Source: Terebella lapidaria (Eukaryota; Annelida; Polychaeta; Terebellida; Terebellidae). From it: a DNA stretch of 64,000 nucleotides. This document shows, piece after piece, positions 313 through 53,093 of the stretch. The notes beneath the pieces are model-generated. The model saw nothing but the letters and a program-made list of their open reading frames with translations. It was not told the origin of the DNA and did not search any database. The DNA is taken from positions 19,610,868 through 19,674,867 of the forward strand of contig OX424555.1 in the NCBI GenBank assembly GCA_949152475.1. Direction: 5' to 3'. Both the position numbers and the translations under genes were made by a program. Position 1 is the first letter of the stretch. Each line of letters opens with the position of its first letter.

Positions 313-1424
313 TCGACCAAACCCTCCTTTTCACCTGAAACTCCAAGTTTAAACCCAACTGATCCAACAGCAAAAGAGTCAGTTTCAAGCACAAAATATC
401 CCGTTATATCCCCATCGATGGTCGGCCACAAGAGCGGATCTGGGGGAGGGGTGTCCAAGGGTTCTGGTTCTGCCTCTTCCTTTCACTGGAACCCTCTCAT
501 TTAGCATGATTGACCATTCCCATGCAAGTTCCAATTTTGGCCCAGGGATTTGTATTCAATTGGTGCTACTTCTCCTGTCTCTACTGATTATTAAAAAGGT
601 AACTACTATCAGAAATACATGTATTTCTGCTACTATAAGTGCCAAAGGCAGATCCAGGGGGTGGGGGACGGGAGGGGGCTTTGTCCACCCCTCCCTCCCC
701 CCCCCCCCCCCACACACAAAATTAATATCGAAAATTTAGGGGGGTAATGTCAAAAATGTCAAAATACTTGATTACGATATGGCGCACATGTATGGGAAAT
801 ATAATATCAGTTCTGATGCATTTTTGTCACCAAATGCTTTGAGATATAATAAATTTGGTATTGGCATTATTTAGTATTGATGGTGCAAAAAATAATTAAC
901 TTGGAATTAATAACAATTGCTTGATTAAAAAAGGTGGTTTTAGTAAGTTTATGTTAATTTTATACTCAGGAGAGGCCAGGAAGTTCTACTCTATCTTCTG
1001 GGGCCCTTCAACGGGGCCCTTCAGTTGGCCCTTCAGTGGGCCCCAGACCCCCGGCCGTGAGGTGCTTGCCGGGCTCGCATTGGTCCATTCCCCTAAATCC
1101 CAGATTTCCCCTGGATGCACCCTTTTCTTCATTTAATATGATATACATTCATACTACTTCAATTACTAAAGGGGGCTTACGGCGCAATAACTCCTCCCCC
1201 CTCCACACACACAACCTGGAACTAAGCACCCTGTACTCGTCCCTGATTAGTACACGAAATAGGCATCCAATAGTCCTAGAAACGTCTCCAGAAACCACCC
1301 CAAATGCTCTCATAAAACACCAAAATGCTCATTTTACTGGCGGGGAACTTACGGCGCCCCCGAGCCCCCAGACCGCATTTACCTTGTTTGCGCCCCTGTA
1401 TTAAAATTCCTGGAGCCGCCTCTG

Positions 1425-2838
1425 CCTACACATGAACTTATTGTCAAAAAACAAGTGGAAGAATTGTTCGGGAGCAGAACTCACTATGAAGTATTCAAGA
1501 ATATCAAGTGAGTATCACGCCTAATGCTGTTTCAATGTGGAAACTGTCAGGTTACATCCAGACACCATCCTGCCAATATTGTTTCAACCAGCAAGCAAAA
1601 ACAGTGGCCACACAAGCACTGTTGACTCTGCTCATGTATTATTTACACATTACACTGATCCACATTCCACAGGAGAATATTTTTCAGATACCCTCTCTAT
1701 TACTGAGATCCACAAATAGATTTTCGGATTTCCACTCTAAAAACATGCTGTAAATAGATTCATGGTGGAGAAATGCACCTCTGGTATGATTTGTAACTGC
1801 ATGATTTCAGCTTTAAATGTGGGATTATTCTTATTGTTAGGATCACCACAATCATTCTGTGATACAACATGGCCATACATCACAGTGATGATGTCATAAC
1901 CACTCAATTATACAAACAGATTCCATGTTCCACTGTTCAGGTGTCAATGTGAACAGTCCAGGAAATAGACACATAACCAACATGTCCTCCGTGAATTTGG
2001 CATGCTCATTACTTTGTTGAACTATGATCTTTCATAATGTGCCATTTATGTAGATTCAGATGAAAAATAAATATCATGCCACACTTTCTGGATTCACGTA
2101 TGTTCACTCTTAGCAATTCCTCAACAATAAATTGCATTGAATGCAACATAACTGTGACCTTTGTAGCCAATAACAAGCAAGTGTCTGATAATGAAAAATC
2201 TCAACAAACGCAAAGGTGCTTGAACTTTGGCTGACGATACATTGATATTCAATTACCAGAGGTGTGATGTTGCCGTTGTGTGCCAGTTTTGTTGCACGGC
2301 CTGGACACAGGAGACTTGCTATAATTTCTGGATATGTCCTGTGTGTACTTCAATCTTGAGGTGATGTCACCTTCACTCATGCATCATTGACAATCAGCAC
2401 ATACCAGGTCCAAGGTGTCCTTGAAACAAAGGAGACTTGGACACCGTTCTCTTAGCTCTAATTTTACCCCCTTCCCCCTCCGTCTCTTGGATCCTGCTGA
2501 TGTCTCAGCATTGGCCGCTGGGAAAGTCTGATGGAGATGTGATTAATACCTAACACATATATCTGTGTTAGGTATTAATCACAAGTATAGCTACAGCTGC
2601 TGGTTCAAGATTGAATGACATACAGACAGGCAATAAGCCATGTCGGATCCGATCACTTCCAATCAGGCCGTGACATTTGGAAGGCTACAAGGGAACTTGT
2701 AGAAGATAAATACAAAAAACTTAAGACATTGTCACATATATATGCCTTTGACTTCAGGATGGCTGAGTAAATTGGGTTTTACTTTGCACCAACTGCTTGA
2801 AACCACGGACATTACATAAACAGCCACCACATTAGAGA
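1425..2838. repeat. Left-arm unit sequence, no gene
   Basis: Non-coding repeat-unit DNA. 1,540-1,720 is the inverted partner of 41,300-41,510; 1,830-2,000 of 40,780-40,940; 2,240-2,800 of 20,150-20,690 and of 53,400-53,860. Translations between copies are broken by stops and shifts in every frame. The only local novelty is the perfect hairpin at 2,539-2,582. Confidence 0.7.
2539..2582. repeat. Perfect 19-bp hairpin
   Basis: Arms GTGATTAATACCTAACACA (2,539-2,557) and its exact complement (2,564-2,582) around the loop TATATC. In copies at about 20,420 and 53,560 only one arm is present. Confidence 0.95.
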
Positions 2839-3113
2839 GACAGGAGACCTGCCTCTTAACCGCCTCTGTGGCCGAGTGGATGGGACCGGTGGCTCTTGAA
2901 GCAACGAAGCTCAGAGGCGGTAGGTGACGCGGGTTCGATCCCCGTCACCGGCACAAAGTAGGTGGAGTTTTCATCCTGGCAACGCAAAGGTTTCTCCATT
3001 CGAATGTGCTTTCCAAATTCTAAATTGTCACCCGACGGGGGATGGGGAAGACAGGCAGAATTGCCTATCATCATGGACCGTCGTTAAATAAATCTGATTA
3101 TTATTATTATTAT
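2839..3113 (+). mobile_element. tRNA-derived SINE with ATT tail
   Basis: The head has a pol III A box (TGGCCGAGTGG, 2,869-2,879) and B box (GGGTTCGATCCC, 2,931-2,942), a Leu/Ser-type tRNA origin. A body of about 150 bases and an (ATT)n tail follow. An exact 8-base duplication ATTAGAGA flanks it (2,831-2,838 and 3,114-3,121). Copies of this block elsewhere lack it. Confidence 0.88.
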
Positions 3114-3121
3114 ATTAGAGA

Positions 3122-6100
3122 AATTGAAAAATATACTACATCTGCTCCAAACTAAAACATTCAATCGGATTGTGTAAAAGACATGCATGTAGAACAAGTA
3201 CATTTTGTAGCAAGTTCTCTGGATGTCAATTCCTAGTGGACATTTTTCTACAGCCTGATATCATATTATTTCGTATTGATTTGTCATCAATTGTATGTGA
3301 ACAAATACATTGAATGTTGAGCAATTCGCTTTGCCATTTTGTTCATTGATCCTAACCCACATCATATTGTGTATACTGTGACGATCTCCTTGATGACTTG
3401 AACCAGTGAACAATAGCACAAGAATAATTGTCGTTGAGGACCATGAACAGTTTATCGCATTCTCCCTGTGCCCTGTTGACACTCTCAGGATATCGTCACC
3501 CCAATCTCTACATGAATTTCACATGGATGGCGCTGCATAATTTTGCATAAAGCATGTGTACCAGTTCATTCCACTCCACAGGGGCAATTTATCAAGAACA
3601 AGTGGATGCATTGATCAGGAGCAGAGCTGAATATCAAGTGTTCTCAGTAGTCCCTGTCAGTCAGTTTTGCCTCGTTCTCGTTATTGTTGTGTAGTTCAAT
3701 ATCCTGTACTTCCCATATTATCATTACTAAGATTGTGTTGTTAGATAACTATTCCATACAACTATTACTTTACAATTCTTTATGTATTATTCCCTTGAGT
3801 TATTTGACACTGACTTGAGATATTCAGAATTGATCTAGGTCTTATTCAACAATATGTGTATGATATAACAAAGTTCTTAGCTTTCATGTGAATCAGTTTT
3901 CGTAAATGTTTTTGACAATAAGTATCTTAGCCTCTATCTTACAGTGGATATCAGAAACAATTTTACAACACACTAAGTTTTCTTTATGATATTCTTGCCA
4001 TTCGTTCATATCACTGAGTTGACATTTGTATCCCCCAAGAAACATTCCATGTTGATTTTTTTTCACGACCATGATGTGATTTCTCACATTTTGGCACCAC
4101 GACTACAGAGACTGTGTCAAATGGTAGTCACCACATCAAGAAGAACACACATAATGTAGGACGAGGTGACAGCCTGCCATAAGAAATCCAATCACAATAT
4201 CACTGTTGACAGATTTGATGGAGATAATCAGGATATCCAATTATTTGTCACTAGTCAACATGCACTTTGAATATTACATGCAGTAATTGCTGCTTGTATT
4301 GGTGGTAATAGATTGATACTTACATTCCGTCCACCATATTCACTAAAATGCGAGTAAGCTATATTAGGATTCAACATGATCAGAATGCATGTTTCCCAAC
4401 CAGAAATGGCCTAAGTACGTAACAGTTCAAGCTACATTTACTGTATTCGATGCCATGAAAGCTTTCTCCTTTCAGTTTTACAATGATATGCAAAATTTAG
4501 TATGGATCAAAGATCCCGATTAGACGGATTCGTGTCTTGGTGACATTTGTCTCGTTAGGTTCCGGGCATTTATCACACCAAACCCTGACTCATCTCGGCA
4601 GTATTACTCGGCATCATACGTCACACTTGGCCTGTATACTTCTTCAAATCTCCACACCACTGAGATATTCAATAAATATGGATTTGTGTTTACTCTGTTT
4701 GCATTCGAAATAAATTTGTGAATTCACCTCCTTATTTGAAAATGTCCCCCAAAAGATCAAAACCATCAAAACATACAAGTCAGCCATTCATCCCTGATTG
4801 TCTGCAAATCTGGGGAGATTGCCAAATCCATCAAGTATGGCTTTGCTCATGAAGCACAAACAACTAATACTTTACTTGGTATAAATTACCAGAAATAAAA
4901 TTAGTATGAAGAATTTATCCAAGATACCTCTCTCTATTTCTATGAAGAAGACGTTGCTGGTGAAGGATGATGTACTTTAGAAACTAGAATAATACAGTTT
5001 GCTTATATCAAACCCAATTAGTTAAGTTATGATTATGATACATGTATAAAATAAAATATCTATTGTAAAACTGTTGGATGAGTTAAGTCATCGATAACGA
5101 GCTCATTTATCACATTGTCTGTTCGAAATTGTGTTCCTATTTCATGTTTGATTATGATCCTATGGCACTGTGTATATTCATTGTGTGTATTTTCATAACT
5201 TTCTCGCCCACCAGTTTCATCAACACTTACTACTCCTGCTGCTACAATGTGGTAATTGGACAAACAGCGGTGAGTTTGACTGGTAATTGTACACTCAACC
5301 TACTCTAACATCTGTGTTTGCCTAGATTGCCGTGATCAAACTTTCTTAACATTTATATATTCTGGGTCCATTAAGGTCTTGTAGACTTCATTATGCATGA
5401 TTCCTAATCACTACGCAGATCAACACATGACTAATGAATATTCGTGAAATGTACTACATGTATGTGTACTCTGTGGATGACCTGCGTTGATGTTTAGCTG
5501 CAAATCTATTGATGGAAATTCAATTGTGCATTGACTGGAGTGTAACAAAACAATACAGACATGATTACCAATCAATTTACAACCTTTTTTTTATTATAGA
5601 TCACATATCATGTGCAAAAAAATGTTTTCACAGATCAAATTCAATCAAAAACATAAGTAATGTCATATATGTTCCCAAATTTTACTGAATCAGTGGTAAT
5701 TACATGTTGATGATCTGCCATGGAGATTGTTGTTATTTCTGTAGTCTGTTTTAATGCCAGTGGACCAGACGGCTGATCTGTGTTCTCTTGTTTCTAGTCG
5801 AGTCATATCCAAGCTTCATACTGCCAATATTAATTCAAACCGACAACTGGCCAGAAGAATTCTATTCATCTCTACTCGTGGGTTATCTACTTTCCACTGG
5901 AGGATATTTTTCCCAGAATGATCAACAGTATCCTCTCTAACACTGGGATCCACAAATAAACTTTTAAATTTCCACTTCAATTTTGAAAACGAGATGATAC
6001 ATCAAGCTGTTCGATACATGCCTAGGTACACGGAATAGACATTACAGGATACAACAGTTGATAGCTGTATTCAGAGCAATGTAATTATCCAAGAAACTCG

Positions 6101-8689: not shown

Positions 8690-11600
8690 CTGGAAAATAC
8701 AGAGAGTTGTAATGGATACGTCATGGTATTCAGGTCATTATTACATAACAATCTTCATTTTCATGAAAAAATATATAATGAAGCACGCTATTATGAAAAT
8801 GATAGAATCATCCTCAAAGCCACAATATGCAATGATGGTGACACGAATACTAGAAGGTGAATTGTATTAGCAGCTAAAACTAATTAATATCTAGTTTCAA
8901 AATTGTCCACCTCCCCACTCCCCAGTCATTCACTTCATTCGTCGTGCACTAAAGCCTCAAATTCTGTTTTGGGGTAGCCTTTCAAGTGACACAGCACCAA
9001 TACAGTGTATTCCACAGAGGAGATAGAACAACTTGAAAACACTTCCGCCCAACAATAAGGCAGATATGTATTCATGGAGAGAAGCAGAGAAAGTGCCCCT
9101 CGAGGATCTTAGAGCCTTGCGCGAAAAGGCTTCAAGTACTAAGCAGAGCCATAATGCCAGGAGTAGGTGATCAGTCCCAGTGGTGGCCTGTGTGAATTGC
9201 TAGAAGTTCTAGGAGCCATGTTTTTTTGTCAGCAACAGATACGAAATCACCATTCGCAAATCACAGGATGCTAGATCAATGCAGTCACGTGCTCACGAAT
9301 TCTGCTGCCATGTCAACACTGTCACTGAAAGGAAAAGCAATGCATTTAGCATGGGAACGTATCCTGGGATATGACTGTCACCAAATCTAGCCGCATGGTC
9401 ACCATCAATACTCAAGAGCAATGCGATTCCCGCACACGTCTAGAACCTGAGTCTAAACAATCAAATCTTCCCGTGCCAGAGCTGGGATTCAATCTTTCAT
9501 CTCATCATCTTTTTGCCCGCAACTAACAATAATTGAAAAGTGCAATATATTCAAGTGATTTAACATCACATTACCAGTATAATCTAATCCCAGTAACGAG
9601 TTTGAATTGTGGCCCATTATCTACAGCCAATTTGGTACATGAACATATTCTGTCTCACAACAGGTCAGAAATATGGAAAATCAATCAAGATTTTATGGAT
9701 TAGAAGAATATCCGGATAATGAATTACCGAGTGAAGAAAGCCCAGTATCATTCGTCTCAGCACTGGCACACAATCTCCCTCAACAATGCATGACACAATA
9801 CCTAACGCCTAGAGGGTAGAACAGAATAATACCGATGAAGTGGCATCGTTGTCACAAGCAGGCACAGACCTTCAAAAAAACCCCAAGAACTCATGTGGAT
9901 TATGTTCGTAACCTGACATGATATATGGACAGTCATAATTCCAATGAAGGTCCATTGTTAGATGCCATTCTCCCAGACACATTTTCCCAGATGCCATTTT
10001 CATACATCATAACCATCCGTGACCCAATTATTTCAGAGAATATGTCAAAATGACACTGTTTTTTTTATGATGATTATTTATATCTGGAACCTAATTGTCA
10101 GTACAACTATGATAACCGGTACATATAGCAAATACAAAATGATTCAACTGCATGTATGTTCTTAACATTGAGTTGACCACATGTGATTGTACATCATGCT
10201 GACAATCCTCATAACAGCTATGATCACCAGGTGATGGTCGTCATGCTGATTTTACATCTCACAGATTTTTTGTGAGTTTCGTTACATGTACATGCTGCCA
10301 TTGCATGACTACAGTATCGTCCGTTTATAAATCATGTCAAACAGTACATGGTTTCATTTAATTGCCTGTACGCCACCGGGAAGTAAGTTGGCTTCTTTCC
10401 CAAAGTGGCTGTGCTCACGTGTCGCAAATCTTAAATATGAAAGACACATGCTAGATGATACTATTTTCAGCATCAAAGAAATATAACACCAGAGGCTGTC
10501 CTGAGAAATGTGAGTGAATGCAGGAGACCCAGCATTCTAGTGATCGATTTTTACAGTCATGAAAACAACAACTTGAAATCTGAAGCATAGACAGCTCTTT
10601 TTGATAACTTTCTGCCGCCTCATAATCCACGTAAGAGGAGGAAGGTTTCCATTAGGTAACTTTCGCAGTTCTTTATGACATTTCTCGGTAACACGTTGTT
10701 TCGTATTAGCGTCCTACGCCATCATGCCATCATTGATGTGCCAAACACCGATACAGCAACCACAAACCTGACGGGAATCCGGTCCAAGGAATTACCATCA
10801 TTGACATAGATGTAGCTGAAAGTGGCCCTTATTGCCTCTGATGTTAAAACATGCTGCTTCCCAATCAATTAAGGACATTAGGTGGTTGAATAATATTACC
10901 ATTTACAAATGGTCATAACAGGAGTAGAAATTAAATTTAATCATGGCAGCAAACCCTATACATTTCACATAGATACGTATTTTCAGTAACTTCTGAAAAC
11001 ATGCAGAACCTAACCTACATTGGGCATATTACTCTGAGATTACAGTTTGTAATTTTCGAAATTTTACAATGTACGTGTACATGTACAACATACATTGCAA
11101 TAACAATGCTGACTATAATGCTAGCACTGGTAGAACAAGCCAGAATATGATAAAGGTCATCAGTTTCAATGTTCATTGAACTCGAAGCTGTTTGAATTGG
11201 ACATTAATGTATGAGGACTCAAGGTCTCTTTTCTAATAGGTTTTCCTAAAGATTCATCATAGAAATTCCTACCCATCAGCAGTATTGCTCAATAGCCACG
11301 TCTTGAACTATTTTTATTCCCTGATGACCTTGTCCTCTTTAACATGTTTAAAGGATATATCTAAATCAACGAAGGGATTGGGAAGGTGGCAAATCCAATT
11401 TCAGGGCGACAATCATCCGATTTGTAGGATTTGTAACAATGCAACAAATCTATTTGAAACGTAATCTGACGTTCGAGAGTTTTCCTGCCCTTCATTCTGC
11501 TCGGCTGGCGAATGACTGGTGTGGTCATCACTTTCTCCGGTGATAGCACTTACATAATCTCACTGAATTGTCAGAAGTCTCACTCAATCACTCACTGGGG

Positions 11601-23136: not shown

Positions 23137-23142
23137 CCCATT

Positions 23143-24665
23143 TACGGTGGCTTCTTTCGGCCATAATTTTTATTTTATTTTCAAGAACTTATGTAAAATT
23201 TATGTTGGCGACGAAAATCATTTTAGACGTGACGAAAATCAATTTCATTGTGACGAGAATATTTTAAACGCGTTGAAAATCATTTTAAACGCAACGAAAA
23301 TGTTTTAAACGCAACGAAAACATTTTAAACACGTTGAAAATAATTTTAAACGCAACGAAAATGTTTTAAACGCGTTGAAAATCATGTTAAACGCAACGAA
23401 AATGTTTTAAACACGTTGAAAATAGTTTTAAACGCAACGAAAATGTTTTAAACGCATTGAAAATCATTTTAAACGCAACGAAAATGTTTTAAGCAGGTTG
23501 AAAATAGTTTTAAACGCAACGAAAATGTTTTAAACACGTTGAAAATAGTTCTAAACGCAACGAAAATATATTAAACACGTTGAAAATAGCTTTAAACGTG
23601 ACGAAAATATTATCGTCGTGACCAAAACAATTTTCGTTGCTTATTGTTGTTTCCGTAGCGTCTTCCAAAATGGCTGCCCTACTCATCATGTGACTCACTA
23701 CGAGAAAGAGCAATGCATTTTGTTGCACTGTTGAAGTCACGTTTAAAACATTTTCGTTGCGTTTAAAACTATTTTCAACGTGTTTAATATATTTTCGTTG
23801 TGTTTAAAACTATTTTCAACATGTTTAAAATATTTTCGTTGCATTTAAAACTATTTTCAACGCGTTTAAAACATTTTCGTTGCGTTTAAAACTATTTTCA
23901 ACGTGTTTAAAACATTTTTGTTGCGTTTAAAACTATTTTCAACATGTTTAATATATTTTCGTTGTGTTTAAAACTATTTTCAACGTGTTTAAAACATTTT
24001 TGTTGCGTTAAAAACTATTTTCAACATGTTTAATATATTTTCGTTGTTTAAAACTATTTTCAACGTGTTTAAAATATTTTCGTTGCGTTTAAAATGATTT
24101 TCAACGTGTTTAAAATATTTTCGTTGCGTTTAAAACTATTTTCAACGCGTTTAAAACATTTTCGTTGCGTTTAAAACTATTTTCGTTGCGTTTGAAACAT
24201 TTTCGTTGCGTTTAAAATGATTTTCAACGCGTTTGAAACATTTTCGTTGTGTTTAAAATGATTTTCAACGTGTTTAAAACATTTTCGTTGCGTTCAAAAT
24301 GATTTTCAACGTGTTTAAAATATTTTCGTTGCGTTTAAAACTATTTTCGTTGCGTTTAAAACATTTTCGTTGCGTTTAAAATGATTTTCAACGTGTTTGA
24401 AATATTTTCGTTGCGTTTAAAACTATTTTCAACATGTTTAATATATTTTCGTTGTGTTTAAAACTATTTTCAACGTGTTTAAAATATTTTCGTTGCGTTT
24501 ATAATGATTTTCAATGTGTTTAAAATATTTTCGTTGCGTTTAAAACTACTTTCGTTGCGTTTAAAACATTTTCGTCACGTCTAAAATGATTTTCGTCGCC
24601 AACATAAATTTTACATAAGTTCTTGAAAATAAAAAAAAAAATTATGGCCGAAAGAAGCCACCGTA
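23143..24665. mobile_element. Foldback transposon with tandem-repeat arms (1,523 bp)
   Basis: Outer ends are inverted copies of about 95 bases beginning TACGGTGGCTTCTTTCGG (23,143; complement ends at 24,665), nearly perfect. Inside them are arms of about 20-base repeats: the left arm (about 23,235-23,620) in CAACGAAAATG orientation, the right arm (about 23,742-24,570) in CATTTTCGTTG orientation. The whole element is flanked by CCCATT on both sides (23,137-23,142 and 24,666-24,671). Two paralogous sites (about 47,665 and 52,195) have only one CCATTC and no insert, which confirms both borders. No transposase; non-autonomous. Confidence 0.92.
23235..24570. repeat. Inverted 20/41-bp satellite arms around a unique spacer
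   Basis: Two half-units alternate: GTTTAAAACATTTTCGTTGC and GTTTAAAACTATTTTCAACG, giving a 40-41-base compound period with scattered variants (ATATATT, ATGATTTT). In the left arm both are in reverse complement. About 120 bases of non-repetitive spacer (about 23,622-23,742) separate the arms. The right arm is about twice the length of the left, so they have expanded or contracted independently. GTTTAAAAC in each half-unit is itself nearly palindromic. Confidence 0.88.
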
Positions 24666-24671
24666 CCCATT

Positions 24672-35025: not shown

Positions 35026-36914
35026 ATCATTGCCATATTCGCCTTTGCCACAACGACATCAAGCTCGTCTAAGAGTTATTTCTACTTCAAGTGTTTGGAC
35101 AACTCTGAGACCTCTGTCAGTTCTCTCAGCTGGAGTTATCCATTCAAGTGAGTTAGGACTATGCTGAATATGATCATGTGATCTTTAAAACTAATGTGAA
35201 ATGATACCTAGCGATTTCTGCATTTAAGTTTGAGGAATATATAGTTGCCGACCATAATTTGCACATTTTTTAAATGTTACTATTGGAATTCGCAGAATAG
35301 ACCAGTCAATGATTGAGGTGCAGTTTTGTAACAAGAGTATCACACAGACTTACAGTCCCTATGGCGACTTCTCCGCACCGTCTCAGTTCTACGTGTTTGT
35401 GGGTGTCATGGCCTTCCTCTACTGTATTGGCGCTGTCATCCTCTATGTCTGCTTCGATGACAAGTACAGGAAGTTTGACAAAATACCCATCATTGTAAGT
35501 GCTGAAAATGACATTTACATATACTTCAATTTGCACAGTTATGTTTGAAATTTCAAGTTAACAAATAAATTATAACTATGGTATTGAATCCCGGTGATGA
35601 CATGCGTGCTGCGACCTGCGAGCTGCGAGCAATAAGCGGACATGAATATGTGATGTGCGAGCTATGAACTGCAACCTGCGAGCTTAAACTGCACCCTGCA
35701 ACATGCGAGATAACGTTACAAACTGCGACCTGCATGCAACAAAATCCAACTTGATTTTTGGTATATACATTTTCCGTATTAAACCATGGTTTACTACGGA
35801 ATAAGTAATATACTAATATACGAGATCATTTAATATTGTGTCAGGCACAATATCGCAGGTCACAGTTCATAGCTTGCAGGTCGCAGCTCATGACCGAGAT
35901 TCCATATACCTGCGAGCTACGACCTGCGAGCAATAAACTGATATGGATATGTGACCTGCAAGCTACAAACTGCGACCTGCAAGCTATAAACTGCGATCCG
36001 CAAGGTAAAGTTACGAACTGCGACGTGCGTGCAACAAAATGCAACTTGAATATTTGGTATATACATTTTCCGTATTAAACCATGGTTTACTACGGAATAA
36101 GACAAATATACGAGCTTGATTCATGTTGTGCCAGGACAATGTCGCAGGTCGCGATTTATAGCTCGCAAGTCGCAGGTCATGACCGGGATTCCATAATTCC
36201 CGGTCTCGACCTGTGACATGCGACATGCAAACTGTAACATGCCACATTGCGCCTGACATAACATGAAATGATCTCGTATAGGCCCTACATGAATTATCCA
36301 TAGTCAAACCATTGTTTAATACGAAAAATATGTATACCACCTCGCAGGTCACAGTTTATAGCTCGCAAGTCATAAGTTGCACTTTTTAGCTCACAGGTCA
36401 CACGCCCATATCAGTCCGGGCTTCCAAATTTTTTTATGCTCGTCCATGTAGGACTTTATTGTGTCATGCGTATTCGTGGTATTGTGGCTGATATCTACAT
36501 CGGCGTGGGCGACAGGCGTCAGTCAGCTCAAGGAATACTCCAACCCTGACGAGTGGTTCGAGACTTTCATCAAGGATGACTTCCAAGCGAATCCGTGTGA
36601 TGCAGTCATCAAAAGTGCTGGGAACTTTGCCACACTCAATGCCTCACTGGTATATACTCGTAGCTCATGTGTATTAGAAAATTATTTGTTTCAAATACAA
36701 ATATGCTACACGTAGAGTTATAACGAAATGTTTGTGTTACACAAATTACGAGGGAGTGATCAATTGTCTTTTCATGATTTTCTAGATATTTGGTTTCCTG
36801 AACACGTGTGTCTGGGCCGGCAACCTGTGGTTCCTGTACAAGGAGACGAAGTGGTTCAATGTGGAGACTGAATACACACAAACATCTCCTGCAGACACAC
36901 CTCAGCAAATCTAG
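35026..36914 (+). CDS. Synaptophysin-family four-TM protein, right copy (3' four exons)
   Basis: Exons 35026-35147, 35296-35494, 36452-36649 and 36786-36914 (TAG at 36912-36914), each with AG acceptor and GT donor (GTGAGT, GTAAGT, GTATAT). They join without a frame break into 215 residues. Diagnostic segments are YPFK after loop 1, SAPSQFYVFVGVMAFLYC leading into TM2, LISTSAWATG in TM3 and GNLWFLYKETKW after TM4, all in the order of synaptophysin/synaptoporin. Loop 1 cysteines are 23 and 52; loop 2 has one cysteine (156), where vertebrate synaptophysin has two. Expected location is the synaptic or small-vesicle membrane, both ends cytosolic. An AATAAA lies at 37,109-37,114, about 195 bases past the stop, and could serve polyadenylation. 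The first exon, expected to carry the conserved KEP..GF region, is not visible in the preceding 2 kb. It may lie further upstream or have been left out of the duplication, in which case this copy may not make a full protein. Paralogue assignment (SYP, SYPL or SYNPR type) cannot be made. Confidence 0.92.
35586..36424. repeat. Nested foldback minisatellite in intron 2 of the right gene copy
   Basis: About three consecutive units (roughly 35,586-35,912, 35,905-36,192 and 36,190-36,424). Each opens with CTGCGACCTGCGAGC-type words and closes with GCTCGCAGGTCGCAG-type words. Unit borders carry GAATCCCGG or its complement CCGGGATTC (for example 35,586 and 36,182). The first two units have at their centres a near-perfect 30-base palindrome around CCATGG with arms TTCCGTATTAAACC / GGTTTACTACGGAA (35,772-35,801 and 36,068-36,097); the third has a degraded version near 36,300. 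This is foldback-transposon architecture. No ORF. Confidence 0.75.
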
Positions 36915-47300: not shown

Positions 47301-48552
47301 GTGTACCGACAACTAAATTCAAGGTATAAATAATAACCATAACAGATCCAGTACTAGGCATTTACTTTTTATGTATCTGTAGACATTATATATTGTGTTA
47401 TGGATTTATGAGGTATTGTCACCAGCAATAATAATGATGGTTAGATAGAACACAGGAAATATAATCTTCAGCTGCCGTTTCGAGTCGATCATGTGCATCG
47501 TATGTCTGGAAAAATGACACCTGACAATGGGCCTGCATTGGAAATATGACTGTCCATCTATCATGCTATGTTATGAACATTATTTACAAACGTTATTGGG
47601 TTTCTTTGTATTTGTGTCTGCTTGTGCAAACGGTGCCACTTCATCGGTCTTAACCTGTTCCATTCTCTAGGTGTTAGGTATTTTCAGCTGTGTGTGTTAT
47701 GTATTGTTGAGGGAGATGGGATGCGGTGCTAAGACGAAGGACAATGGGATTTTGTTACTTAGCAATTCGTTATCCGATTATTCTTCCAATCCCTTGAATC
47801 TTGATTGATTTCCAGATATGTTTTGTTATTTCTTCGTGTATTTCCTGTTGGGAATGACCTCTCATGAATTAGAGTGCTGTTCATGTATCGGATTGGCTGC
47901 GAATGATGGGCCAAACTTAATCTTGCTGCTGGGATTTAGATTTCACCGGTGCTGTGATAATGAATCAGTTGCATTAATTTCACTCTTTATTATCGTCAGT
48001 AGATGGCAAAACAAAACACGATGAGAGGAGAGATTGAATACCAGCCCTGGCATAGTTTTAATTAGTTAAAAAATATTGGAGTTGGAATATTTTGTTACAC
48101 TGTGGCCTGAATTTTTTCTCTTCAACTGGCAGAGTTTCCCGACTGAAGTCTATATTTTGCAATGGCTCTATCAGTAATACTTGGGCGATGCCCAGACACT
48201 TCGCTGTCAGATTCACGTTGTGTATGGTGTCCATGCCTTCCACACCAAAGGCTGGTGAGGACCTAGTCATAACATGAACACTACTGGAAAAAATGACCAC
48301 ATCATCTCAGACCAAAGGAAATCATTAACTTGGGGACAAACTCTATCATACAAAGTCCTAAATTCTACAATGCATGTGACAAGGTAAATGTGTAAAGCCC
48401 ATACATATTGCGATATTGTTCACAGGTCAAGAAGAAACAGTATAGAAAGTGTGAGTCTGTATGTTAGGATCTGTAAGCAACATGGTAATGTTCGCTGCTC
48501 AACATCCAATGTACTTGTTCACATTCATGTACAACTGATGATAAATTAATGA
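44329..48552 (+). repeat. Tandem sub-unit 1 (about 4.2 kb)
   Basis: Opens with ATCTTGAGAAAGGGAACG and corresponds block by block to 48,553-53,093. For example, 44,331-44,460 matches 48,555-48,680, 45,340-45,700 matches 49,200-49,560, 46,750-47,190 matches 50,640-51,070, and 48,090-48,330 matches 52,630-52,860. It contains a SINE (44,768-45,051) that sub-unit 2 lacks, and misses about 650 bases present in sub-unit 2 (51,070-51,715). Blocks inside also match the central region 21,900-25,000 and the right arm 30,120-32,400. No gene recognised. Confidence 0.85.
44768..45051 (-). mobile_element. SINE with L2-type 3' tail
   Basis: On the minus strand the end reads GAAGCGCTTTGAGCAGG, then AAAGCGCTATACC and (ATT)n, the 3' hairpin type shared by L2-clade LINEs and their SINEs. 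ATCAT flanks both sides (44,763-44,767 and 45,052-45,056). Sub-unit 2 and the right arm lack it at the same place. Confidence 0.75.
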
Positions 48553-51500: not shown

Positions 51501-53093
51501 TGGTCATGCAGTGGCAGCATGTACGTGTTATGAAACTCACGACATTTTTACACAATCTTCAGGGTGTAAAATCAGCATGGGTGCACAAGGTTGTCAGGGA
51601 CATTGTAATATTAAAAATATTGATTGATTTGACGATCATTACCTGGTCATGATACCTGTTATGATTGTTTTCATCTCGCTGTTAAGTACATACTTGAATC
51701 ATAAAATGCACTAATTTGCAAATGACAAAATAGACTTACTGCATGTAGATCTATATCAAATACACAAACTACTGATTGCACTTTATAAATATGAACATTT
51801 TGTGTGAATTAGTTATGTGTACCGGTTAGAACATGTGTACCAACAACGAAACTCCAGGTATAAATAATCACCAGAAAAGACCCAAAATGTGGCACTCACT
51901 TTTATGTATCATTTAGACTTATATTAGTTATTGATTTATGAGGTCCTTTCACCAGCAATAATGTATGAATATGGGTATATAAGACACAAGAAACATAATC
52001 TTCACCTGTCATTTCGAGTCGATCATGTGTACCATGTGTCTGGACAAATGGCATCTGACAATGGGCCTTCATTGGGAATATGACTGTCCATCTATCGTGT
52101 TATGTTACGAACATTATTTACAAAGGTTATTGGGTTTTTTTTGTGTTTGTGCCTGCTTGTAGAAACGGTGCCACCTCATCGGTCTTAACCTGCTCCATTC
52201 TCTAGGTGTTAGGTATTTTCAGCTGTGTGTGTTATGTATTGTTGAGGGAGATGGGATTCCAGTGCTAAGACGAAGGCCAGTGGGATTTTGTTACTTGTCA
52301 ATTCATTATCAGGTTATTCTTCCAATCCATCAAATCTTGATTGATTTCTAGATATGTTTTGTTATTTCTTCGCGTATTTCCTGTTGTGAATGACCTCTCA
52401 TGAATTAGAGTGTTGTTCATGTATCAAATTAACTGTGAATAATGGGCCATAATTTAAGCTTGCTGCTGGGATTTAGATTTCACTGGTGCTGTGATAATGA
52501 ATCAGTTGCATTAATTTCACTTTTTATCATCGTCAGTAGATGGCAAAACAAAACACGATGAGACGAGAGATTGAATACCAGCCCTGGGACAGTTTTAATT
52601 AGTTCAAGAATATTGGAGTTGGAATATTTTGTTAAACTGTGGCCTGAAATTTTCTATTCAACTGGCAGAGTTTCCCGACTGAAGTCTATATTTTGCAATG
52701 GGTCTGTCGGTGATATTTGAGCGATGCCCAGACACTTCGCTGTCAGATTCACGTTGTCTATGGTGCCATTACCATGCCTTCCACAGCAAAGGCTGGTGAG
52801 GACCTAGTCATAACATGAACACTACTTGAAAAAATGACCACATCATCTCAGAGCAAAGGAAGTCATTGACTTGGGGACAAACTTTATCATACGAAGTCCT
52901 AATTGCTACTGCACATGTGACAATGTAAATGTGTAAAGCCCATACATATTGCGATATTGTTCACTGGTACATGTCATCAAGAAGAAACAGTACAGAGAGT
53001 GTGAGTCTGTATGTTAGGGTATGTAAGCAACATGGTGATGTTCACTGCTCACGATTCAACGTACTTGTTGACAGTCATGTACAACTAATGATA
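48553..53093 (+). repeat. Tandem sub-unit 2 (about 4.5 kb)
   Basis: Direct tandem copy of 44,329-48,552, roughly 90% identical by eye. The junction at 48,552/48,553 is sharp: sub-unit 1 ends in GATAAATTAATGAC and runs straight into the start motif, while the end of sub-unit 2 (GATAAATTATTACAATT) continues into different sequence. A poly-G tract at 49,123-49,136 matches the one at 45,240-45,255. No gene recognised. Confidence 0.84.

Follow-up and report, generated by a model that had tools for sequence, protein, structure and literature searches.

Foldback elements often remain orphans, their mobilising enzyme having been deleted. The element at positions 23143-24665 of the window, the 64-kb stretch of DNA analysed here (C1:19610868-19674867 of a 761.6-Mb genome), raises the question of which enzyme family moved it and from what kind of transposon it derives.

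Structure of the window element

The element is 1,523 bp long and both of its borders are exact. Its outer inverted repeats, beginning TACGGTGGCTTCTTTCGGCC, are ∼97 bp in length and, over 98 aligned columns, differ by one mismatch and one gap (98.0% identity), in agreement with the near-perfect repeats of 95 bases described in an earlier note on this DNA. According to the inverted-repeat alignment, the left repeat, which starts TACGGTGGCTTCTTTCGGCCATAA, lies at 23143-23239 on the forward strand and the right repeat at 24568-24665 on the reverse strand. Outside them, at 23137-23142 and 24666-24671, are exact copies of CCCATT, the target site duplication that the note had reported.

Each arm contains an array of a 41-bp compound unit (20+21). 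The left array occupies 23211-23608 on the forward strand, where Tandem Repeats Finder detected 8.6 copies at 23258-23608; the right array, of 20.9 copies by the same program, occupies 23741-24594 on the reverse strand. The consensus units of the two arms are identical at 40 of 41 positions after reverse complementation. Within the unit, the 20- and 21-base halves agree at 16 of 20 positions in the best rotation, which bears out the alternating half-units of about 20 bases noticed previously. The longest stretch that forms one inverted-repeat pair measures 352 nt, with 87% identity. The note had allowed that the arms might run on as ordinary satellite beyond 24,665; they do not, the array stopping at 24594 and Tandem Repeats Finder detecting no satellite in the flank past the element.

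Between the arms is a short core. Its left part (23609-23659) is unique sequence that is also present in two longer copies, L064 and L068. Its right part (23660-23745, reverse strand) is a 5′ leader, identical at 81 of 86 positions to nucleotides 677-762 of L052, a copy on C14 in which this segment directly precedes the first exon of a transposase gene. With long inverted arms of internal tandem repeats and a short core, the element is of the foldback structural class, and the observation made in the earlier note is confirmed as real.

Elsewhere in the window, at 35609-36195, inverted blocks of 20-21-bp units surround a short palindrome-like centre and may represent another array-bearing mobile element.

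Flanking DNA and empty relatives

We removed the element and one duplication in silico and aligned the joined flanks across the junction. Three flank paralogs without the element were found in the window: at 51933-52606 (forward strand, 72% identical to the joined flanks), at 47402-48067 (forward, 70%) and at 9094-9963 (reverse, 69%), the last absent from the earlier note. At the junction, two of them carry TCCATT and the third TCTACC. The uninterrupted paralogs previously placed at about 47,665 and 52,195 do align across the junction, but their 6-mer differs from CCCATT and neither is the pre-insertion site itself. At 69-72% identity, the paralogs are diverged empty relatives rather than the original target. 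The flanks themselves belong to a low-copy repeat, of which the window holds at least four diverged copies.

Dispersed copies and target site duplications

The first 12 bases of the end matched the genome 442 times, as compared to 46 for the reversed pattern. The first 20 bases matched 130 times with at most one mismatch (98 exact), and a related sister end, TACGGTGGCTTCTATCTGCC, had 160 exact matches; neither reversed control gave any. All 97 bases of the window element's left repeat were matched at eight or more places, including the window, among the 40 of 125 candidates that were scored. These eight matches over the whole repeat point to a recent spread.

Convergent ends at most ∼5 kb apart were fetched as pairs from the listed 12-base, 20-base and, for one locus, sister-end matches. 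L027 and L028, which are not convergent pairs, were left out, and alternative pairings in L018, L060, L073 and L076 were dropped before duplications were counted. An exact 6-bp duplication flanked 25 of the 32 TTTCGGCC pairs (window included), with 24 distinct sequences; two further pairs had a duplication with one mismatch, and five had neither. Further copies flanked by 6-bp duplications, for which the earlier note had suggested a search, thus exist. When the flanks of different pairs were swapped, 0/990 combinations gave an exact duplication and 8/990 one with at most one mismatch. The pairing at L076 was picked with the duplication in view; without this locus, 24 of 31 were exact. Among eight pairs of sister ends, three had exact 6-bp duplications, one had a single mismatch and four had neither (swapped pairs: 0/56 exact, 1/56 with at most one mismatch). 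The L015 pairing in this set was likewise picked with its duplication in view, and two of seven were exact without it.

Two readings in which no cut-and-paste transposon is involved conflict with these data. Arms that consist of tandem arrays would be in keeping with a dispersed satellite that had undergone inverted segmental duplication. This reading is at odds with the common exact borders, the uninterrupted relatives of the flanks and the 130 dispersed ends, and is refuted by the 24 distinct duplications; we give it practically no credence. Rolling-circle elements of the Helitron/Helentron type are not known to have a target duplication or long terminal inverted repeats, and near-perfect inverted ends with 6-bp duplications do not fit them. 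The window element has both features. Helentron-carried arrays have been reported in oyster (accessible text of PMC7492417), but the inverted ends and duplications found here contradict a similar carrier of satellite repeats, which is extremely improbable at this locus.

The lengths of the duplications also bear on the superfamily. Abutting exact repeats of 4, 7, 8 or 9 bases were found in 0/32 pairs and of 5 bases in 1/32. Duplications in P/Galileo, Mutator and hAT elements are 7-9 bp in length: 7-8 bp in the P superfamily and Galileo, so that Galileo too departs from 6 bp, and ∼9 bp in Mutator-type foldback elements.

In one locus, L073 (C13:39268282-39272261), two 1,132-bp copies have an identical GGTAAG duplication. 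As they share the sequence of the duplication and their length, they are probably a tandem duplicate of the locus.

Sister families encoding an rva_4 transposase

The Pfam profile rva_4 (PF24764), which we take to represent the IS3EU/GingerRoot superfamily, matched the genome at least 133 times (150 of 246 candidates scored) and gave no match in any of 14 control genomes. Many of the matches lie in open frames of ∼280 to 484 codons, including five frames of 421. Eight representative loci were fetched first and six further copies later. A first scan for sister ends, allowing two mismatches, gave three matches, about the number estimated by chance; we place weight on the borders and duplications identified later. 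One match to the end pattern, in L079, fell within the transposase frame and was discarded as a chance occurrence.

Homology between copies broke off precisely at TACGGTGGCTGATATATGCCATA for L080/L087 and at TACAGTGGCTTATTTGTGCCATA for L082/L089, defining the ends of sister families A and B. The family-A end had 1,505 genome matches with at most two mismatches (0 in the control), the first family-B end had 307 at the same threshold (4 in the control), and the second family-B end, TACGGCGGCTTATTTGTGCC, had 36 exact matches (0 in the control). Five sister elements of 8.7-11.2 kb were delimited, all of which have exact 6-bp duplications, an rva_4 match and ends similar to those of the window element. 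Family A is represented by C1:52942706-52953024 (10,319 bp), which is flanked on each side by CTATGG and has 20-bp units in each arm, and by C2:34319383-34330582 (11,200 bp, including an additional internal end), flanked on each side by ACAGAC. The family-B elements are on C4 (8,800 bp, TTTAAG duplication), C11 (8,717 bp, GCTCAC) and C13 (9,733 bp, ACATTC). The first two have 41-bp units in both arms, and the first exon of the C11 element contains one stop. The rva_4 matches of the sister elements sit in open frames that are 421 or 385 codons long.

All six transposase frames scanned with Pfam matched rva_4, with E values of 4.5e-25 to 1.3e-35, and no HHCC zinc domain was listed in that scan. 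Three residues are invariant in eight aligned transposases: D140, D199 and E241 (L087 numbering, from the given frame). By the integrase motif, they are presumably the DDE catalytic residues. Searches against NCBIfam gave weak transposase matches to IS481, IS3 and ISNCY, all far below the cut-off, and none for one of the five proteins, that of L083.

A blind search of the eight rva_4 loci for TA-starting ends with duplications returned only the arms of L085. Nucleotides 1328-3090 of this locus form a smaller rva_4 element: a 21-bp array occupies each arm, and the transposase frame spans from array to array; a clear target duplication was not found for it.

Copies with the window-type end and transposase exons

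When the eight transposases were compared by tblastn to the window and the other 78 fetched loci, L052 matched. The copy to which it belongs (L052/L099, C14:22716577-22723166) is 6,590 bp long, has CATTTT on both sides and carries 41-bp arrays in both arms. From one border inwards, L052 comprises the TTTCGGCC end, a 41-bp array of 19 copies, the leader shared with the window element and, directly after it, the first exon of a transposase, with 53% identity to the family-B exon over 76 columns (E = 1e-25). The opposite end, at C14:22716577, has one mismatch and stands behind a 41-bp array. In the 6 kb between the ends, tblastn detected no catalytic domain and no HECT piece.

A genome search with the exon gave 75 matches, the best of which, after C14 itself, was on C16 (89% identity). 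The C16 copy (L100/L101), of which one end was viewed, has an end that differs from that of the window element at 1 of the first 20 bases, followed by a short array (∼3 units of 41 bp), the leader and the first exon. A catalytic exon ∼2.2 kb further on is 56% identical to that of family B; its frame is broken, and a gap spans the region of the second catalytic residue. The leader segment is kept in 19 of the 31 other paired copies; L064 and L068 have only 56 bases of it.

The end, arm and leader of the window element thus run into a transposase exon on both C14 and C16: the window element has retained the arms and the gene leader and has lost the gene itself. The same junctions bear on the superfamily. 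The architecture of the window element resembles that of Galileo and Tetris (as described in parts of PMC3573991 and PMC4079207), as would be expected of a foldback mobilised by a different superfamily whose members bear long repetitive arms (P/Galileo, Mutator or hAT), its rva_4-like ends having arisen by convergence. The duplications, however, are of 6 bp rather than 7, 8 or 9, and the two junctions (L052/L099 and L100/L101) largely refute such an origin, which we judge very unlikely.

The autonomous relative that the earlier note had proposed to look for was found in part: there are copies of the same subfamily with transposase exons and sister families with long frames, but the two same-subfamily copies are incomplete or broken. 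In this genome, no intact transposase was found to be associated with precisely the TTTCGGCC end, and of the 98 exact 20-base end sites none falls within 15 kb of any rva_4 match among the 91 compared, out of 133. Because the C14 copy lacks a catalytic match and the C16 copy is broken, the present source of the enzyme could be a sister family, or there could be none. The earlier description of the locus, as a non-autonomous foldback transposon that is complete and flanked by a 6-bp duplication, is supported by the exact duplications of 25/32 pairs and by the transposase-bearing relatives. By contrast, the statement that no family was known with this end no longer holds: within this genome, such ends belong to rva_4 transposase elements that match the IS3EU/GingerRoot description.

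Three long copies were considered as autonomous elements and rejected. The flanks of L013 (4.7 kb) differ at two of six bases, and tblastn found no similarity to the transposases in the locus. The duplications of L064 and L068 are exact, but no transposase match lies in the middle of either copy; tblastn matches of L085 to L068 fall in the repeat-encoded part of the L085 frame. The middles of these two copies (L068 ∼660-3185, L064 ∼1310-3160) have in common ∼2 kb of non-repeated sequence bounded by inverted GGGGAAGAGGGGGC, possibly a nested insertion that was later carried along with its host element. Within L068, at 1277-1682, there is also a further, distinct 21-bp array of 19 copies.

Arrays and helical spacing

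Each of the eight rva_4 loci fetched first has an array of at least six copies within the ∼5 kb fetched. The sole background sample, the 64-kb window passed through the same filter, yielded only the arrays of the element itself. The periods are 20/40 (L079), 20 (L080 and L084), 21 (L081, L086 and, on both sides, L085), 41 (L082) and 31 bp (L083), that is, 20-21 bp or twice that in seven of the eight. Both ends of the element are resolved for L082 and one for L080; in the other six loci, the array is near the transposase and may lie inside the element. The array unit of the window element and that of family B are alike at 30 of 41 positions; the best of 2000 letter shuffles reached 24, and none reached 30.

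As the DNA helix has ∼10.5 bp per turn, the array periods of the rva_4 loci are close to whole helical turns. This suggests that spacing, more than sequence, may be under selection in the arrays, as for repeated binding by a transposase. In Galileo, tandem units have been proposed to provide extra transposase binding sites (accessible portion of PMC3573991). The family assignment could also be right and the arrays be by-products of slippage with no role in transposition. Copies with little array persist: L072, at 300 bp, has an exact duplication and L022, at 511 bp, one with a single mismatch, and both have low 41-bp periodicity. Arrays occur near all eight rva_4 loci despite differing unit sequences, however, and with the recurrent period this argues against by-products. 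We consider that explanation plausible but somewhat doubtful.

A possible HECT-like passenger

One copy of each sister family, on C1 for family A and on C4 for family B, contains a match to the C-terminal part of the HECT domain opposite to the transposase. The two pieces, at 4896-5501 of L087 (family A, reverse strand, E = 2.3e-7) and 4772-4999 of L082 (family B, reverse strand, E = 5.7e-8), are over the Pfam cut-off and are 36% identical to each other over 75 columns. When PDB sequences were searched with the family-A HECT frame, HECT ligases came up only as weak matches (best E = 0.03). A 452-residue frame of the family-A element had no Pfam match over its length or in its last 130 residues; the HECT match is in a separate frame. 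Judged by these similarities, the HECT-like piece is a possible, putative passenger gene of the ubiquitin system. In the open-access literature, as distinct from subscription papers and Repbase, we found no paper joining IS3EU with HECT, or combining HECT with transposase, DNA transposons and ubiquitin ligase.

Proposed origin of the window element

Overall, the window element is very probably a non-autonomous DNA transposon of the cut-and-paste type that has undergone internal deletion. In the parent lineage, which has IS3EU/GingerRoot features, the encoded transposase is an rva_4 DDE enzyme; the element would have kept the parts that act in cis and drawn the enzyme from elsewhere. The TACGGTGGCTTC ends and the phased arrays of both arms would be kept as needed by the transposase, and the leader of the lost gene may have been retained by accident. 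Transposase made elsewhere, perhaps by an enzyme-supplying relative, would bind the ends and, we infer, the arrays. The element would then be excised and inserted where the target is cut with a 6-bp stagger, which would produce the 6-bp duplication; it was probably moved in trans. Exchange between tandem repeats would lengthen or shorten the arrays, and would thereby account for paired TTTCGGCC copies that range from 300 to 4,508 bp.

A broader design may be shared by the rva_4 (IS3EU/GingerRoot-like) elements of this genome, a proposal that we advance tentatively. Helically phased arm arrays of 20-21-bp (or 31-bp) units would serve as landing strips with multiple sites for the transposase, and full-length elements would carry a HECT ubiquitin-ligase gene. 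The unit sequence would vary between families while the whole-turn spacing stays, and deleted forms such as the window element would be foldback transposons.

The enzyme family of a foldback transposon can thus be named, and a single genome holds a deletion series that runs from 8.7-11.2-kb elements with transposase through copies with one or two exons to copies made of arms only. A poorly described transposon superfamily thereby gains a testable cis-architecture and, possibly, a passenger gene belonging to the ubiquitin system. As far as we have checked, the foldback architecture in this lineage, the arrays near whole helical turns and the HECT-like passenger (one copy in each of two families) are new. 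A foldback IS3EU element was not found in the open-access literature (subscription papers and Repbase lay outside the search), in which the only co-mention was "foldback" occurring once in a reference list; a search with the 12-base end returned only papers on other subjects.

Comparison with known systems

Several known elements resemble the window element in part. The sea-urchin TU elements are foldback transposons in which short tandem units lie inside an outer end that is not repeated; they have an 8-bp duplication. Galileo, a P-superfamily element of Drosophila, has long, internally repetitive inverted repeats, and its first copies consisted of arms only; it differs in its transposase superfamily and its ∼210-bp units (as far as described in the accessible text of PMC3573991). 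Pairing of arms has been reported there to cause inversions, and arms like those of the window element can, by that report, do likewise. Tetris and DAIBAM of Drosophila virilis are non-autonomous foldback elements with tandem repeats in their arms; they differ in having ∼220-bp units and, in the text consulted of PMC4079207, neither a named autonomous partner nor a link to rva_4. In oyster, tandem repeats have been tied to an IS3EU annotation (CgiSat35, 690; CgiSat47, 129; numbers taken as unit lengths in bp). Those satellites have other unit lengths, and the accessible part of PMC8268682 describes no foldback element.

The closest correspondence is to IS3EU/GingerRoot itself. As described in the available text of PMC10045372, these elements have TA..TA ends, usually 6-bp duplications, and a DDE core without HHCC that is close to IS481, IS3 and IS1202, with the first catalytic D 100-300 residues in. 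Foldback arms, subterminal arrays and a HECT passenger, present here, are not mentioned in that text, the comparison being with the published description. The features listed recur in this genome: TA..TA termini in copies of the window element and in families A and B; 6-bp duplications in 25 of 32 pairs, the five sister elements and the C14 copy; and, in the lineage though not in the window element itself, an integrase-like DDE transposase, without a listed HHCC domain and with its first D at residue 140 in L087. It is on this match of features that the assignment of the lineage to the IS3EU/GingerRoot type rests.
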